Source of the DNA: Ruminiclostridium cellulolyticum H10
GTDB lineage: Bacteria; Bacillota; Clostridia; Acetivibrionales; DSM-1351
NCBI RefSeq assembly: GCF_000022065.1
Contig: NC_011898.1
Coordinates: 372,001-436,000 of the forward strand
DNA: 64,000 nucleotides
Direction of reading: 5' to 3'
The notes under the pieces are model-generated. The model was given only the letters and a program-made list of their open reading frames with translations. It made no database searches and was not told the origin of the DNA. Made by a program: the position numbers and the translations under genes. Shown piece after piece: positions 5,562 to 20,366 of the stretch; position 1 is the first letter of the stretch; each line of letters starts with the position of its first letter.

Positions 5562-7994
5562 ATGTATCAACGTTTTACAGAAAAGGCAGAGAGGGCTATA
5601 GGATTTTCCCAGCAGGCTGCCGTAGATTTGGGGCATAATTATGTCGGTACTGAACATATACTCTTAGGACTTGTAAAAGAAGGAACAGGTGTTGCAGCAA
5701 GGGTACTTCAAGGTCAGGGAATAACCGAGGAGAAAATTCTCAAAGAGATTGAAGAACTTATCGGAAAAGGAGATGCCGAGGGAACACAGCCTGTAGGGTT
5801 TACTCCCAGAACAAAGAGAGTGCTCGAGCTTGCTTTTAAAGAGGCAAGAAGAATGGGACAGGGCTACATTGGTACGGAGCATCTGCTTTTAGGGATTATG
5901 AAAGAAGGAGAAAGTGTTGCAGTCAGGATTCTGATGGATTTGGGAGTAGACCCCCAAAAGCTTCTGAATGAGCTTGTTAAAATTCTTACGGAAGAGACTC
6001 CGGGTTCCAACGGGTCTGCAAAGGGAAACAGTTCAAACTCAAATACACCGACCTTGAACCAGTTTGGCAGGGATTTAACTGATATGGCAAGAGACGGGAA
6101 AATTGACCCTGTTATAGGGCGAGACAAGGAAATTGAAAGGGTTATTCAAATCCTTAGCAGAAGAACCAAAAATAATCCATGTTTAATAGGGGAGCCTGGG
6201 GTAGGTAAGACTGCCATAGCAGAAGGTCTGGCCCAAAAAATTGTAGAGGGAAATATCCCCGAGATTTTAAGCAACAAGAGAGTTGTTACCCTTGATTTAT
6301 CCTCAATGGTTGCAGGTGCAAAGTACAGAGGTGAATTTGAAGACAGGCTTAAAAAGGCAATGGAAGAAATCAGAAAGGCGGCAAACGTCATATTGTTCAT
6401 TGATGAGCTGCATACAATAGTAGGTGCAGGAGCAGCTGAAGGTGCAATTGATGCATCAAACATACTCAAGCCATCCCTTGCAAGAGGTGAAATTCAGGTT
6501 ATAGGTGCAACCACCTTAAATGAGTACAGAAAACATATAGAAAAGGACGCAGCTCTTGAAAGAAGATTTCAACCTATAACCGTAGGGGAGCCTTCCAAGG
6601 AAGAGGCTGTTGAAATATTAAAGGGCGTTCGTGATAAGTATGAGGCACACCATAGGGTAAAGATTACCGATGATGCACTCGAAGCCGCAGTCAAGTTGGG
6701 GGACAGATATATAACAGACAGATTTCTGCCGGACAAGGCTATTGACCTGATTGATGAGGCGGCTTCCAGAATAAGGCTAAAAACCTTTACGGCTCCGCCA
6801 GATTTAAAGGAAATGGAAGAGAGGGTTGAAAAACTAGGTAAGGAAAAAGAAGATGCCATCAGATGTCAGGAGTTTGAAAAAGCCGCAAGAATAAGGGATG
6901 ATGAGCAAAAGCTAAAAAGTGAGCTGGAAAAGATAAGGGACCAATGGCATCAGAAGAATCAAACCAAGACAGATACTGTTACTGAGGACGATATAGCAGA
7001 TATTGTTGCCAGTTGGACAGGTATACCTGTAAGACGTCTTGCCGAAGAAGAATCCGAAAGACTCCTGAAAATGGAGGATACACTCCACAAGCGTGTAATC
7101 GGTCAGGATGAAGCGGTAAAATCAATATCAAAAGCTATCAGAAGGGGACGTGTAGGACTGAAAGACCCAAAACGACCGGTTGGATCATTTATATTTATGG
7201 GCCCCACCGGAGTAGGTAAGACTGAGCTTTGTAAAGCATTGGCAGAAGCAATGTTCGGCGATGAAAAGTCAATGATTCGTGTTGATATGTCCGAGTTCAT
7301 GGAAAAGCACAGCGTGTCCAAACTGGTAGGTTCACCTCCGGGCTACGTAGGCTATGACGAGGGCGGGCAGCTTACTGAAAGGGTAAGAAGAAAGCCGTAT
7401 TCAGTCCTTCTGTTTGATGAAATAGAAAAGGCACATCCCGATATTTTCAATATACTGTTACAAATACTTGAGGATGGCAGACTTACCGATTCACAGGGGC
7501 GTGTGGTCGATTTCAGAAATACCATAATAATCATGACATCGAATGTGGGTGCTAGGACAATTACTGAACCTAAAAGACTTGGATTCTCAGCTTCAAATGA
7601 TGAGAGTGCAAAGAATTATGAGGATATGAAGAGCAATGTAATGAGCGAACTTAAAAAGATGTTCAGGCCGGAGTTCCTTAACAGGATTGATGATATAATT
7701 GTTTTCCACCCGTTAAGCAAGGAAAACATAAAAGAAATTGTACGCCTCATGCTGGATGTTCTTGTAAATAGACTCAAGGCTAATGAAATAATAATGGAAG
7801 TTAGTGAAGAGGCCATGGGATATCTGGCACAAAAGGGCTTCGACCCTGTGTTTGGAGCAAGACCTTTAAGACGTGCAATTCAAAGTATGGTAGAGGATAA
7901 GCTGGCAGAAGACATGCTTGAAGGAAAGGTCAAAGCCGGAGATAGCATCAGAATAGACTTAGACGGAGAAAATATTGTTGTTATTAAAAAGTAA
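5562..7994 (+). CDS. clpC: ClpC, AAA+ unfoldase of the ClpCP protease
   Basis: An 810-aa Hsp100 ATPase. It has the double Clp N domain (residues 1-145), AAA+ module 1 with GEPGVGKT (~residue 211), a middle domain with a UVR-like segment ([15 protein letters not shown]) typical of ClpC, and AAA+ module 2 with GPTGVGKT (~547) and [14 protein letters not shown]. The C-terminal domain ends in VVIKK. ClpC unfolds proteins for ClpP and is targeted by McsB-made phospho-arginine. It is the last gene of the operon, with a strong terminator 43 nt downstream. Length is as expected. Confidence 0.97.
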
Positions 7995-8084: not shown

Positions 8085-8110
8085 AAATGCCTTGATTATT
8101 TCCGATATGT

Positions 8111-8139
8111 TTGACGCCTAAATTTTACAGATATACAAT
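8111..8139 (+). promoter_or_regulatory. Promoter of the radical-SAM peptide operon
   Basis: TTGACG (8111-8116), a 17-nt spacer and TACAAT (8134-8139). The expected start is near 8146, giving a leader of about 50 nt before the maturase gene. Confidence 0.65.
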
Positions 8140-8198
8140 TAATCCCAGTAAGAGTATAAAATGTAATGAACCCAAATATCGGAAAGGAAGTCTGTATT

Positions 8199-9605
8199 AT
8201 GATTATATATAAACTTATAAAGACTCCGTTACAATATTATGTTTATGACAGGAATAAGAACAAAATCCTAAATATTAGTAAGGAAGAATATCAGGAACTT
8301 GATAGATTAAATAAAAAAGAAATTACTGAAAAAGAAGCAGTCTGTCTTAAAAAATTTCAGAAGTACGGATATTTAAAAGATAGTATTCTCGAAGAAATAG
8401 TTCATCCGGAAACCAAATATATTAAGCATCATCTTGACCACAGAGTACAATTTCTCATATTACAGGTTACACAAAGTTGTAATCTCAGATGTAATTATTG
8501 TACATATTCAGGTAATTATACTAATAGAGTTCACTCCGGTAAGTCAATGTCATGGGAGTTGGCAAAAAAGTCAATTGACTATTTATATGATCATTCAAAT
8601 GAAATTGAGAAAGTCAGGATAAGTTTTTACGGCGGAGAACCATTGCTTAGATTTGACTTAATAAAAAGATGTGTACAATACGTTAAAGAAGCTTATCCCG
8701 ATAGAATCACAGACTATGGAATTACTACCAATGGCACACTTCTTTCAGGTGAAATAGCTGAATTTCTCATAGATAATCAGTTCTCTATTACCATAAGCCT
8801 CGACGGCTCCAAGAAGGATCATGATGCAAACAGAAAGTTTGCAAATGGGGAAGGCAGTTTTAATACTATCATTAATAATATTAAAGACATAAGTAAACAT
8901 AACAAGGGATTTATTAAAAATATCAGATTTAATACCGTTTTAAATCCAAAATCAGATTATGGTACGGTGAGGAATTATTTCAATTCAGAAGATGTTGTAT
9001 GTGATGCCGGAGTCGGTCTTAGTCTCATGGAAGAAATCAACTATAAGGGGGATATCTCCTTTAGCAATGAGTTTATTAATATAAGAAGATATGATTACTT
9101 TCTATTATTAATGACCATGGTAAAGAAATTAAAAAAAGAAGCAATACCCAAGTTTATGTCTGAAATAAAAGCAGGTATTGATATTGATTACTCTACGATG
9201 GAGGATGTTAACAACCTGAATAAGACATGGCATCACGGAGGTCCTTGTATAGCAGGTGCAATGAGAATGTTTGTGAATACAGATGGCGTAATCTACCCCT
9301 GCGAAAAAGCGGTTGAAACTAGCGAAGCTATGAAAATAGGCGAGATGGATGAAGGTACGGATTCCCAAAAGGTGTCGGAAATAATGAATATAGGAAAAAT
9401 ATCAGAAAAGGATTGTAAAAGCTGCTGGGCCATAAACTGGTGCTCTATGTGTGCATTGTATGCGGAGAAGGACGGAAAATTTGATGTAGCAACCAAAAGG
9501 AAGAATTGTGCCAAATCTTTTATAGAGGTGCAAGAAAAACTTTTGAACATATGTGCTTTAAAAGAATTCGGATATAAATTTGGAAAGGAGGAAATGTATG
9601 TATAA
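8199..9605 (+). CDS. Radical SAM/SPASM peptide maturase (CcpM-like, TIGR04068 type)
   Basis: A 468-aa radical SAM enzyme. The SAM-binding [4Fe-4S] motif is CNLRCNYC (Cys94, 98, 101), followed by SFYGGEP and TTNGTLL, as in peptide-modifying maturases. Residues ~345-440 form a SPASM domain with Cys at 350, 368, 406, 409, 415, 418 and 437 for auxiliary clusters. The first ~75 residues could be a leader-binding domain. The family fit is to the maturases of clostridial Cys-rich peptides, which is supported by the three downstream genes. The chemistry is inferred to be Cys thioether formation. ATG 8199 has RBS GGAAAGGAAG; an earlier in-frame ATG lacks one. The 3' end overlaps the next gene by 8 nt. 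Confidence 0.9.
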   Translation: MIIYKLIKTPLQYYVYDRNKNKILNISKEEYQELDRLNKKEITEKEAVCLKKFQKYGYLKDSILEEIVHPETKYIKHHLDHRVQFLILQVTQSCNLRCNYCTYSGNYTNRVHSGKSMSWELAKKSIDYLYDHSNEIEKVRISFYGGEPLLRFDLIKRCVQYVKEAYPDRITDYGITTNGTLLSGEIAEFLIDNQFSITISLDGSKKDHDANRKFANGEGSFNTIINNIKDISKHNKGFIKNIRFNTVLNPKSDYGTVRNYFNSEDVVCDAGVGLSLMEEINYKGDISFSNEFINIRRYDYFLLLMTMVKKLKKEAIPKFMSEIKAGIDIDYSTMEDVNNLNKTWHHGGPCIAGAMRMFVNTDGVIYPCEKAVETSEAMKIGEMDEGTDSQKVSEIMNIGKISEKDCKSCWAINWCSMCALYAEKDGKFDVATKRKNCAKSFIEVQEKLLNICALKEFGYKFGKEEMYV

Positions 9606-10680
9606 GCTTCTGGTTTATCCCTTTAGTATGGAAGATTACTGCATAACAAAATATCGTAATATGCTTCAGGGGTATGAACTTACAAGTCTCGTATGCCTTG
9701 AGGGTGCCTGTGAAACCGGTAGAGATGCAGGAGAATTTAACGAAGTTGAATCCGGTTTAATAATAACTGATGATTATAGTGCTGAAATTGATAAATGCAA
9801 TGTAGTACTTTTGTTGGATAAAAATTTTAATGAATTTGAAGAAACATACATTAAAAGAATTAATACTGCAGTATCAAAAAACAAAATTGTTTTGACCAAT
9901 AAGAAAATATACGATTTTTGCGTTAAAGAGTTTTCCGACAATAAGAATATTAGGATACTGGACAATATTCAGGAGTACGGATTGAATTATTTTACAAATG
10001 ACAGGAAAATTACACAGCCGGATATTCCTGTTATAACAGTTATGTCAATGGGGGAAAGCTGCAATAAATTTGAAGCACAGCTTGACCTGAGAAAGAAATT
10101 TCAGGATAAGGGATATAAGGTGTTACAGTTTGGTACAAAGGATTATTGTGATTTATACGGCTTCAGAAATATTCCGTCCTTTCTCATGTCAAAAGACATA
10201 TCAATTGATAGAAAAATATACTTGTTTAATTACTATATAAACAAGGAAGTATTAAAGGATGATTATGATGTGATTATAATAGGCGTTGCGGGAGGTATTC
10301 TTCCTGTTAACAGGTATGTCACAAATTATTTTGGTGAGATTCCTCTCATTGTATCTTCAGCTCTGAATATAGATATAAACGTTCTATGCTTATATCATAA
10401 TAATGAAATAAAGAAGGAAAACCTTTATGAATGTCGTGAATTCAACAAAGGAAGGCTGGGTTGCTTTACAGACTATTATTATATGTCTGATAGGCAATTC
10501 AGAATAACATATGAACACGATATAGTATATTTTATGCTGGACAGAAAGAACTGTATAAATAGTATGCCGGTTATAAACGATGAATCACTTAAATTCTGTC
10601 ATGTTTTGGATACTGATGTTAAGGAAAACATGCTTAATTCCTTGGTAGAAGAATTGGAAGGGAATGTGGCACTTGTTTAA
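9598..10680 (+). CDS. Peptide maturation system protein (TIGR04066-like)
   Basis: A 360-aa soluble protein with no signal peptide or membrane helix. It resembles the TIGR04066 family, which is known only from clostridial loci with a radical SAM maturase and Cys-rich precursor. A central Rossmann-like stretch (PVITVMSMGESCNKFEAQLDL, then DVIIIGVAGGILPVN) hints at a nucleotide-binding fold related to P-loop proteins but without a standard Walker A. Its biochemical role is unknown. ATG 9598 has RBS AAAGGAGG and overlaps the maturase stop, so the two are translationally coupled. Confidence 0.75.
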   Translation: MYKLLVYPFSMEDYCITKYRNMLQGYELTSLVCLEGACETGRDAGEFNEVESGLIITDDYSAEIDKCNVVLLLDKNFNEFEETYIKRINTAVSKNKIVLTNKKIYDFCVKEFSDNKNIRILDNIQEYGLNYFTNDRKITQPDIPVITVMSMGESCNKFEAQLDLRKKFQDKGYKVLQFGTKDYCDLYGFRNIPSFLMSKDISIDRKIYLFNYYINKEVLKDDYDVIIIGVAGGILPVNRYVTNYFGEIPLIVSSALNIDINVLCLYHNNEIKKENLYECREFNKGRLGCFTDYYYMSDRQFRITYEHDIVYFMLDRKNCINSMPVINDESLKFCHVLDTDVKENMLNSLVEELEGNVALV

Positions 10681-10693
10681 AAAGGGGGAACCT

Positions 10694-10969
10694 ATGAATA
10701 AATGCGAAGTAATGAATGAAATTAAAAAAACTGTTTTGAGGATAACAGGGATTATTATAGAAGATGAAAATGACAATATTATTGGATGCCATCATATTTA
10801 CCCCATTGTATATGCTATTTATATTGTTGAAGAACTTGAAAAAGTATTTGGGAAAGAGGTTTCAGATATATTTACTGAAAATGATTATACCATCTGGGAG
10901 TTAACAAATTTGGCAGATGCCATTATGAATAAATGCAGGAGTTCTGTAGAAACGCTTCAGGTAATTTAA
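10694..10969 (+). CDS. Acyl-carrier-related protein of the peptide system
   Basis: A 91-aa protein with the helix pattern of an acyl carrier protein, e.g. YAIYIVEELEKVFGKEVSD in place of the usual LIMALEEEFG. The DSL serine that takes phosphopantetheine is missing: the matching place reads IIGCHHIYPI. Proteins of this type (TIGR04069-like) are known companions of TIGR04066 and CcpM. It probably acts as a docking or carrier partner without a pantetheine arm, although the Cys in GCHH could in principle carry a group; that is speculation. RBS AAAGGGGGA precedes ATG 10694. Confidence 0.7.
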   Translation: MNKCEVMNEIKKTVLRITGIIIEDENDNIIGCHHIYPIVYAIYIVEELEKVFGKEVSDIFTENDYTIWELTNLADAIMNKCRSSVETLQVI

Positions 10970-10985
10970 TGATTGCAGGGGGTAT

Positions 10986-11007
10986 ATCATTTATTTTATT
11001 AAATGAT
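10986..11007 (+). other. Hairpin just upstream of the precursor peptide gene
   Basis: A perfect 8-bp inverted repeat, ATCATTTA (10986-10993) and TAAATGAT (11000-11007), with a 6-nt loop. It has no T-run, so it is not a standard terminator. It sits between the acyl-carrier-like gene and the precursor RBS and could mark an mRNA processing or stability site. Confidence 0.4.
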
Positions 11008-11036
11008 TACATAAAAACTATTAAGGAGGTATTTTT

Positions 11037-11228
11037 ATGGAGAAATTATCCAAAAGAAATGAGTTAGTACCTAACACTGTTATGGCATTTTCGTGTCCCT
11101 GTGCTAGCGTCTGTAGCTGTGCTTCAAGGTGTGGCGGAAATGGAACAGCAGATAGTGCTATCAGTAGCAGTCTCAGATCAAGCGAGTATATAGTAGCATC
11201 CTCAGCAATATCCAGCACATTTGGTTGA
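11037..11228 (+). CDS. Cys-rich RiPP precursor (CLI_3235 bacteriocin-like)
   Basis: A 63-aa peptide. A short leader (MEKLSKRNELVPNTVMAF) is followed by SCPCASVCSCASRCGG, which has five Cys spaced CxCx3CxCx3C. The tail is rich in Ser, Ala, Thr and Gly and has no Cys. The Cys spacing and length fit the CLI_3235 family of clostridial bacteriocin-like precursors. The adjacent maturase is expected to crosslink Cys sulfur to residues of the tail or core (inferred). RBS AAGGAGG (11023-11029) is the strongest in the locus, and a terminator follows at once, both fitting a highly expressed short peptide. No protease or exporter gene is adjacent. Confidence 0.85.
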   Translation: MEKLSKRNELVPNTVMAFSCPCASVCSCASRCGGNGTADSAISSSLRSSEYIVASSAISSTFG

Positions 11229-11244
11229 TAAAGTTCTTGACCAC

Positions 11245-11280
11245 AAAAGGAGTGCCTTTACAGGTACTCCCCCTTTTTTG
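11245..11280 (+). terminator. Terminator between the RiPP operon and the glycosyltransferase
   Basis: GGAGTGCC (11249-11256) pairs with GGTACTCC (11263-11270), followed by CCCTTTTTT. The minus-strand sequence has a run of A before the stem, so it may also stop the facing gene. Confidence 0.85.
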
Positions 11281-12991: not shown

Positions 12992-14275
12992 CTATGCTGC
13001 CTTCATCATTGGTCTTTTAATATCGTTCATCATCTTTTCAGCATCATAGTGGCTACCTGTTTTTAGTATTGCATAAAATACTCTTATCAACTTGCCGCAT
13101 AAGGCTACTATTGACTGCATTTTCTTAAGTGGCTTGTTATCTCTATTAATGTAGTATAGGTGCAACTGCCTAAATTCAGGGTTTCTAGCTACTAATGGCA
13201 ATACTGCTTGAAATATGGCATATCTGCCGTCAGAGCGTCCCCTTCTGGTTATTGTTGTTTTGCCTTGATGCTTGCCAGAGCTGTTTTCTCTTAGGTTTAA
13301 CCCAAATAGTTTTACTATTTGCTCTGGAGCATCAAATCTACTAATATCTCCTACAGCACCTAAGAACCCTGCCACAGCTACAATTCCTATTCCTTTTATA
13401 CCTAAAAGCATACTTGCACTCGGAATTTCTTTTACTTGTGCTTCTACTTTTTGCATTATCAGCTCAAGCCTGTGACCATGAATCATATATTCGTCTAGAA
13501 GAGTTTCAATCTCCAGAACTGCTGATTCCAGACCATGCTTTAGTCCAATGGATTCTTCTGCTGCTTTTATGAGCTTCTGGGCATGTTTATGTCCAACCGC
13601 TCTTTTGACTTCCTCTTTCCATGTTGCTACTATTTTTTCCTCACCTGTTTTAATTACTGCCTGTGGAGTAGGAAAATGCTTCAGTGTAAGCAACGCCGCC
13701 TTTCCAGTCCATTTCTTGAAAACAGTACTAAACTCAGGAAAGTATATTGCTAACCATCGTTTTACTCTATTTTGTATGCTAATCAACTGCACAACATTTT
13801 GCCTGCGTAATTCCATCAGATTTCTTATTTCTCGATATACACCTTCAGGCATGTACGGTATTAGATATCTTCCGTCCTTGACTAGCATTGCAATCGTTTT
13901 TGGATCTTTACGGTCATGCTTGCTTGGGGTGTTATCATCTAGTTCCTTTGAGCGTTTTACATGGTAAGGATTAACCATACCAAACTCTACACCCATGTTC
14001 TGCAAGTGACTTCCAAACCCCTACCAGTAATGCCCGGTGGGCTCCATTCCTACGAATGTTTTTGTCTTTTGATTTCTCTTCATCAGGTCTGTAACCCAAA
14101 TATCAAAGGCATTGAAACCCTCTCTTGTATTCTCAAACCTAAATGCTCTTTTAGAAAATTCAAATCCTCTGAAATCAAAAGCCCTGGCGAAGTGGACCTC
14201 GCTACCGATATCTACTCCAACCACCATTGTTTCAGGTGTGATTTGCATTAACTTATTGTTTTGTGTACAATTCAT
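12992..14275 (-). pseudogene. IS110-family transposase, broken by one in-frame amber codon
   Basis: Reads on the minus strand from ATG 14275. The first 84 codons give VVGVDIGS (first Asp) and MEPTGHYW (Glu) of the DEDD/RuvC-like catalytic domain. A TAG follows at 14023-14021, and the same frame then continues GFGSHLQNMGVEFG and DRKDPKTIA (the remaining Asp pair) through the C-terminal transposase_20-like domain (LLGIKGIGIVAVAGFLGAVGD) with its conserved Ser region. No frameshift is needed, so a single base change separates it from an intact ~420-aa recombinase. A restart at ATG 14005 would lack the first Asp and Glu and be inactive. Confidence 0.88.
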
Positions 14276-19124: not shown

Positions 19125-20366
19125 TGTTGGGCAATATCTCCTCTGGACAATAATTAAATTGTAGGAGGAGATTTCAATTATGACAGCACAAGATCGTATA
19201 GTTAAAAACAAAATGAGCCTGATTGAGTTGGCCGAATATCTTCAAAACGTAAGTGAAGCATGTAAAATTCATGGAGTCAGCAGACAGCACTTCTATGATA
19301 TTAAGAAAGCTTACGAGGAAAATGGTCTGGAAGGATTAAAGGACAAGACCAGAAGAAAGCCTTGTATGAAAAACAGGGTTGCTCCAGAAACTGAGGAAGC
19401 CGTATTAAGAATAGCATATGAAAAGCCGGCATACGGGCAGCTCAGGGCAAGTAACGAACTGAGAAAACAAGGAGTTCTTGTATCAGCCGGAGGGGTAAGA
19501 TCAATCTGGCAGAGATATAATATAGAAACCTTTGACAAGAGACTCAAAAAGCTTGAAGAAAAGGCTGCCAAGGAAGGCATACTTTACACTGAAGATCAGC
19601 TCGCTGCTCTGGAAAAGGCACAGCAGGAAAAGAATATATCCATAGACGAGATAGATACCCAGCACCCGGGATATTTGCTGGCACAGGACACTTTCTATGT
19701 GGGCTATATCAAAGGTGTTGGACGTATATATCAGCAAACTGCCATAGATACTTATTCGGCAGTGGGATTCGCAAAATTATATACAGCCAAGGTACCAGTA
19801 ACAGCAGCAGATATATTAAATGACAGAGTCTTACCGTTCTTTGAGAATCATATGATACCGATAATGAGAGTACTCACAGACAGAGGAACGGAGTACTGTG
19901 GAGCACCTGAGAAACACTTGTATGAGTTATTTCTGCAGATGAACGACATTGAGCACACAATGACAAAGGCTAAAAGCCCTCAAACAAACGGTATATGCGA
20001 GCGTTTTAACCAAACAATTCTGAATGAATTTTATAAACCCGCATTCCGAAGGACAATGTATAAATCAGTTGAACAAATGCAGGAGGATTTGGATTTTTAT
20101 ATGCTGGAATACAACGAAGAGCGAACACATCAGGGGAAAAGGTGTAAAGGCAAGACGCCGATGCAGACATTTCTTGACAGCTTGCCTCTTGCCCGAGAGA
20201 AGCTCCTGAATGATCCTGCGAGTTAATTTGTAGGGTCTAGCCCGCCCGGCGATGAGGGCAAAAAAGATATCAGACCAGGCGCCGGTTTGACATAGAAAGG
20301 CACCTCCATATTGGAAGTGCCGAATAAACAAAACTTAATATTTCCCAGAGGAGTGTCAACCCAAGT
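19125..20366 (+). mobile_element. IS481-family insertion sequence
   Basis: About 1.24 kb. Imperfect terminal inverted repeats are visible. The left end reads TTGGG-N6-CTCCTCTGG (19127-19146). The right end, reverse-complemented, reads TTGGG-N6-CTCCTCTGG (20364 back to 20345), and the match then continues as a looser A/T stretch. One transposase gene fills the element. The last base at each end and the target duplication could not be fixed. A hairpin of 10-bp arms (20299-20321) lies between the transposase and the right end. It is inserted just after disA. Confidence 0.8.
19180..20226 (+). CDS. IS481-family transposase (DDE)
   Basis: A 348-aa single-ORF transposase that looks intact. It has an N-terminal helix-turn-helix (NVSEACKIHGVSRQHFYDIKKAY), an HTH_29/leucine-zipper-type middle, and an rve integrase core with Asp in LAQDTFYVG, Asp in VLTDRGTEYCG and Glu in NGICERFNQTIL. 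All three DDE residues are present, so the copy may be active. RBS GGAGGAG precedes ATG 19180. It ends in PASN-like residues before a short non-coding tail that leads to the right inverted repeat. Confidence 0.93.
   Translation: MTAQDRIVKNKMSLIELAEYLQNVSEACKIHGVSRQHFYDIKKAYEENGLEGLKDKTRRKPCMKNRVAPETEEAVLRIAYEKPAYGQLRASNELRKQGVLVSAGGVRSIWQRYNIETFDKRLKKLEEKAAKEGILYTEDQLAALEKAQQEKNISIDEIDTQHPGYLLAQDTFYVGYIKGVGRIYQQTAIDTYSAVGFAKLYTAKVPVTAADILNDRVLPFFENHMIPIMRVLTDRGTEYCGAPEKHLYELFLQMNDIEHTMTKAKSPQTNGICERFNQTILNEFYKPAFRRTMYKSVEQMQEDLDFYMLEYNEERTHQGKRCKGKTPMQTFLDSLPLAREKLLNDPAS

Follow-up and report, generated by a model that had tools for sequence, protein, structure and literature searches.

The genome of the cellulose-degrading soil bacterium Ruminiclostridium cellulolyticum H10 encodes, next to clpC, a four-gene radical SAM operon of the CcpM/CLI_3235 type, whose product is probably a ribosomal peptide with five Cys residues cross-linked to a Cys-free tail as a thioether hairpin. 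While this kind of system is known, the operon belongs to a monophyletic offshoot in which a conserved protein, here called GCHH, is found where relatives have a TIGR04069 protein, and its TIGR04066 protein is predicted to adopt a P-loop fold.

Organization of the operon

The window, a stretch of 64,000 nucleotides, corresponds to positions 372001-436000 of a single-contig genome of 4,068,724 bases. Within it, the operon spans 8199-11228 and encodes a maturase, a TIGR04066 protein, a 91-aa protein and a 63-aa precursor, in that order (the first three are referred to as genes 1 to 3). The features are as follows:

8111..8139, + strand: sigma-70-type promoter TTGACG-17-TACAAT (10/12 matches; -35 and -10 conserved in four orthologous loci)
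8199..9605, + strand: CcpM-type radical SAM/SPASM peptide maturase, 468 aa, Ccel_0328 (TIGR04068)
9598..10680, + strand: TIGR04066 protein, 360 aa, predicted DUF1611/DgcN-type P-loop fold (TIGR04066, AlphaFold2, Foldseek)
10694..10969, + strand: 91-aa GCHH protein, probably a diverged carrier-like protein (ACP fold), not TIGR04069 (hhalign, AlphaFold2, Foldseek)
10990..11016, + strand: A+T-rich hairpin in the gap between gene 3 and the precursor gene (8-11 bp stem in 5/6 orthologues)
11037..11228, + strand: CLI_3235-type precursor, 63 aa, Ccel_0332 (TIGR04065, orthologue alignment)
11249..11279, + strand: intrinsic terminator (inverted repeat after the precursor in orthologues)

On the 5′ side, the operon is flanked by clpC (5562-7994) and its terminator-like repeat, and on the 3′ side, the terminator is followed by a convergent glycosyltransferase gene. 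A reading made from the sequence alone had described overlapping genes with their own promoter and terminator. The overlap is found at the junction of genes 1 and 2 (8 nt) but not at the other two, which are gaps of 13 and 67 nt. The promoter motif is by itself no rarer than chance (20 found versus 17.5 expected), but both hexamers recur in four orthologous loci, where the spacer sequence has diverged. The terminator is borne out, with inverted repeats 3′ of the precursor in five clpC-linked orthologues. An inverted repeat also lies on both sides of the promoter, TTTCCGATAT (8097-8107) and ATATCGGAAA (8176-8185); it is at least partly present in 3/4 other clpC-linked loci and is possibly an operator or an mRNA element. 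The hairpin at 10990-11016 may be an RNA processing or stabilising element, but its stem is conserved mostly through unchanged bases and is therefore no more than suggestive.

As had been noted from the sequence, no exporter or protease gene adjoins the operon. When the ORFs flanking approximately 50 related loci were scanned with crude motifs, subtilisin-like proteases were absent and ABC transporters few. The genome contains one clear C39-type exporter, to which we claim no link, as it is far from the operon and the precursor has no GG cleavage motif before its Cys cluster. Farther along the window, an IS110-like transposase, which appears to be split into parts of 337 and 84 aa, occupies 12992-14275 between the glycosyltransferase gene and a 644-aa gene and is not seen at the corresponding place in four orthologous loci; a second gene of transposase/integrase type (348 aa) lies at 19180-20226.

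The maturase and its precursor

The sequence-only reading had assigned the operon to the CcpM/CLI_3235 group, and profile searches place three of its proteins far above the curated cut-offs: the SPASM maturase (TIGR04068, 630 bits, E 1.9e-189, cut-off 500), the gene 2 protein (TIGR04066, 377 bits, E 9e-113, cut-off 200) and the 63-aa precursor (TIGR04065, 64 bits, E 1e-17, cut-off 26). The assignment does not extend to the third protein, for which a TIGR04069 match had been predicted; it has none (cut-off 70 bits), even at an E value of 10. Pfam scans of genes 2 and 3 and the precursor returned no meaningful family.

The radical SAM motif of the maturase, CX3CX2C, corresponds to C94/98/101, and its SPASM cysteines are C350, C368, C406, C409, C415, C418 and C437, all of them, like those of the radical SAM motif, invariant across 16 relatives. 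The maturase profile aligns with CteB, the thermocellin/SCIFF maturase (PDB 5wgg), through the N-terminal region, the radical SAM core and the SPASM domain. Because this alignment starts at residue 4 and thus takes in the N-terminal region, leader recognition by the N-terminal domain of the maturase is likely. The CteB system differs in the Cys arrangement of its precursor and, to our knowledge, has no TIGR04066 or carrier-like partner. With NCBIfam models, the maturase falls between the sactipeptide (RumMC, 194 bits) and ranthipeptide (PapB, 201 bits) maturases, and for this reason, we do not predict which carbon is attacked.

The precursor consists of a leader (residues 1-18/19), a Cys cluster (20-32) and a Cys-free tail (33-63). 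The cluster, C20-P-C22-ASV-C26-S-C28-ASR-C32, has the CxCx3CxCx3C pattern recognized earlier. Throughout the family, the leader ends near AY/AF and is followed by a cluster of 2-7 Cys and then by a Cys-free tail. A similar division is familiar from the hairpin sactipeptides (thuricin CD, thurincin H and subtilosin A), which have an N-terminal Cys cluster and a Cys-free second half, although their maturase families and accessory genes differ from those described here.

Cys count and tail length

Among 49 non-redundant precursors, the number of Cys predicts the length of the tail (Spearman 0.88, p = 7e-17, a p-value that, like the others in this comparison, ignores the shared ancestry of these related sequences), with a slope of about 3.4 residues per Cys. 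The correlation, which is comparative, is weaker out of sample, with a rho of 0.91 for 32 non-redundant precursors and of 0.75 for 16 precursors from other bacterial families that were not used to find the rule. When the Cys span is held, the partial correlation across the 49 precursors is 0.72; in the out-of-sample set alone, the span (0.78) does about as well as the count (0.75). The rule holds in 17 of 20 matched pairs with unequal Cys counts and fails in 2, with 1 tie, and in one clade, tails of 16, 21, 29 and 33-34 residues accompany 2, 4, 6 and 7 Cys. The simplest reading is that each Cys would have one acceptor in the tail, spaced about as in the hairpin sactipeptides. Since the Cys count predicts the tail length, which is indirect support, we favor a hairpin of this kind over local rings.

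Local rings would be the outcome if the product were of the ranthipeptide type, which we regard as a tentative possibility. Each Cys would then be joined to a nearby β or γ carbon within the Cys cluster, as in freyrasin and the SCIFF peptides, and the tail would be a recognition or export segment. The slightly better score against PapB, the best PDB alignment being with a SCIFF maturase and the frequent Cx3C spacing all fit such a product, whereas four positions on from a Cys, the commonest residue is Cys itself, and a tail length that tracks Cys count, and Cys span less so, is unexpected for a tail that plays no part. It is very unlikely that the precursor is instead a Cys-rich metal-binding peptide that is not cross-linked. 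CxC motifs are indeed common in the family, but a metal-binding role leaves the Cys-tail scaling without a reason, and a complete radical SAM/SPASM peptide maturase adjoins the precursor. A product held together purely by disulfides is argued against by the odd number of Cys.

The TIGR04066 protein

In nearly all complete related loci, the TIGR04066 gene adjoins the maturase gene. A PDB profile search with 38 gene 2 relatives gave a DUF1611 protein (2g0t) as the best match (E 0.0011), while the Pfam DUF1611 model found no match in the gene 2 protein of the window at E values up to 1 and matched 1/38 relatives (E 0.011). The AlphaFold2 model of the gene 2 protein (pLDDT 75.7, pTM 0.80) has the DUF1611 proteins 2g0t and 2obn as its top Foldseek matches (E 3.4e-7 to 1.1e-5), with 2g0t aligned at an E value of 3.4e-7, a probability of 1.00 and a TM-score of 0.63. 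It also matches DgcN (7xrj), an N-acetyltransferase, with an E value of 2e-5. A DUF1611/DgcN-type P-loop fold is thus predicted, which is new for this protein, at 10-15% identity to the proteins of known structure. The Walker-A-like loop is modified (SMGESCNKF): in place of Gly-Lys, most relatives have Asn-Lys within GxxExTNKF, the Lys being nearly invariant, and in the offshoot, the first Gly of the loop is replaced by Ser. One distant relative has GSAAGSGK. Binding of a nucleotide or CoA is plausible. An active DgcN-like acyltransferase or other nucleotide-dependent enzyme, which together with the carrier-like protein would add a second modification to the thioether hairpin, such as N-terminal acylation, seems to us unlikely.

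The GCHH protein and the offshoot

The sequence-only reading had called the third protein acyl-carrier-like, and although the TIGR04069 match fails, carrier-like ancestry, far diverged, is likely. Alignment of the GCHH protein with the TIGR04069 profile is weak (hhalign probability 73.6), and its AlphaFold2 model, of moderate confidence (pLDDT 71.7), finds carrier proteins in Foldseek, but weakly (E 0.09, TM about 0.6). Searched against the PDB, the TIGR04069 relatives find acyl carrier proteins (E 2.7e-6), but they have no attachment Ser, with Pro or Ala in most cases at the aligned position. In the GCHH protein, Pro likewise aligns with the phosphopantetheine-Ser position, and acyl carriage by the usual route appears unlikely from this alignment. 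The protein contains an invariant motif, IEDENDNI-(I/L)-GCHH, and is found only in the six offshoot loci, in 5/11 genomes of the genus.

Among the approximately 50 related loci, the offshoot comprises six, from five genomes, all with the order maturase, TIGR04066 protein, 91-aa protein and precursor, a leader beginning M(K/E)KLSKR and no TIGR04069 gene. In the remainder of the CcpM/CLI_3235 group (TIGR04068, TIGR04066, TIGR04065 and TIGR04069), by contrast, the precursor mostly comes first. The six maturases form a single clade with an SH-aLRT support of 100, and its stem is long, at 1.19 changes per site. The operon sits between clpC and the glycosyltransferase gene in 5/6 cases, while no maturase operon lies between these genes in genomes G002, G003, G008, G009 and G010. 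The simplest history would be that the operon was inserted once, in the common ancestor of the subclade, and has been retained. The H10 genome carries three such systems, and each of the other two includes a TIGR04069 protein (107 and 119 bits). Close to the system near 2.79 Mb, a run of genes includes what looks like an ordinary acyl carrier protein (GLNSVEF; L022:14963-15217).

Within the genus, 10/11 Ruminiclostridium genomes have 1-5 CLI_3235 precursors each. A contig scan for the family yielded few true members past the best seven or so, and a plasmid search yielded one diverged maturase only, without partner genes: that of Enterococcus raffinosus plasmid pHG52 (L255:4968-6278), which lies beside an IS6 transposase. 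In another ORF (L191:4913-5317), the C-terminal portion of a TIGR04066 protein runs into a TIGR04069 protein, apparently what a deletion left of an earlier system.

Within the offshoot, pN/pS is 0.15 for the maturase, 0.17 for the TIGR04066 gene, 0.24 for gene 3 and 0.45 for the precursor, compared to 0.04 for clpC. The ring region of the precursor is 43% identical between orthologues, with all five Cys kept in the five clpC-linked orthologues; the precursor of the sixth locus (G007b) has four. Machinery maintained by purifying selection around a changing core is the pattern expected of peptides for competition or kin recognition, and it does not tell these two apart. The long stem branch, the missing TIGR04069 gene and the lost Gly of the gene 2 loop could also be taken as signs of an operon that is decaying or out of use, but given the strong purifying selection, the intact frames, the conserved promoter and terminator and the presence of the operon in 5/5 subclade genomes, we find this highly improbable.

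Proposed product and relation to earlier work

From the gene set, its conservation and selection, and the Cys-tail scaling, we infer a cross-link chemistry and topology, accessory roles, export and function that, taken together, we consider moderately probable. The N-terminal recognition domain of the maturase would bind the leader (MEKLSKRNELVPNTVMAF-) of a ribosomal peptide, and SAM-derived radicals, with the SPASM clusters, would join the sulfurs of C20, C22, C26, C28 and C32 to carbons of the tail (35-63). The resulting ladder-like thioether hairpin would turn near G33-T37; with all five links formed, at 2.016 Da each, the peptide would be 10.08 Da lighter, taking the average mass of the full precursor from 6428.2 to 6418.1. 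Maturation would also need two obligate accessory proteins: the P-loop TIGR04066 protein, most likely a partner that binds a nucleotide or CoA, and the carrier-like protein of gene 3, most likely a scaffold that is not acylated. Leader removal and export would then be carried out by proteins encoded elsewhere, and the product, probably a signalling or antimicrobial peptide, would most likely act outside the cell, in competition or kin recognition.

The locus was initially described as an uncharacterised candidate. This holds for its chemistry, and in the literature that we searched, we found no mass spectrum or structure for any CLI_3235 product, including this peptide; the locus itself, however, already appears in two surveys, one from 2011 that calls it thuricin CD-like (PMC3132745) and one from 2014 that gives it as a putative sactipeptide cluster (PMC4289311). 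The former described Ccel_0327-0333 as including an AAA ATPase, a maturase with Cys94, Gly145 and Thr177, ORFs of 32 and 63 aa and a glycosyltransferase (PMC3132745), and both surveys took the 32-aa ORF, Ccel_0331, as a second precursor within Ccel_0328-0332. As none of the five orthologous loci has an uninterrupted frame with a start, and as it encodes no Cys, this ORF (10969-11067) is most likely not a gene. Despite the published annotation, a thuricin CD-like two-peptide sactibiotic made from Ccel_0331 and Ccel_0332 is already largely excluded, as that type has two maturases and two precursors, whereas we find one maturase, one conserved precursor and, in gene 2, a predicted DUF1611-type P-loop protein rather than a second radical SAM enzyme, and the curated models name the CcpM/CLI_3235 group.

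The SacP23 cluster of Paenibacillus polymyxa #23 shares the same three-model core and a CLI_3235 precursor but also encodes an ABC transporter and a subtilisin-like protease of its own, together with a TIGR04069 protein; when the whole cluster was placed in Bacillus subtilis, activity against Gram-positive bacteria was obtained (PMC10731318). Its product, whose structure is unsolved, has a mass of 3404 and a blocked N-terminus (PMC10731318), the latter of which would also fit N-terminal acylation of the kind considered above for the TIGR04066 protein. We found no clear match between this mass and fully linked fragments of its likely relatives, and the mass was uninformative as to the number of cross-links. 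A similar cluster with a protease and a transporter is known from Roseburia intestinalis (PMC4573289).

The CLI_3235 group is thus widespread in Ruminiclostridium, and one relative has been reported to inhibit MRSA. With the Cys-tail length rule, the cross-link topology becomes a prediction that can be tested directly, and the DUF1611/DgcN-type fold predicted for the nearly always present partner protein provides a concrete hypothesis for its function; were the second modification true, these peptides would form a doubly modified class. The offshoot, finally, shows that the carrier-related protein is either replaceable or able to diverge beyond recognition while the remainder of the system is kept.
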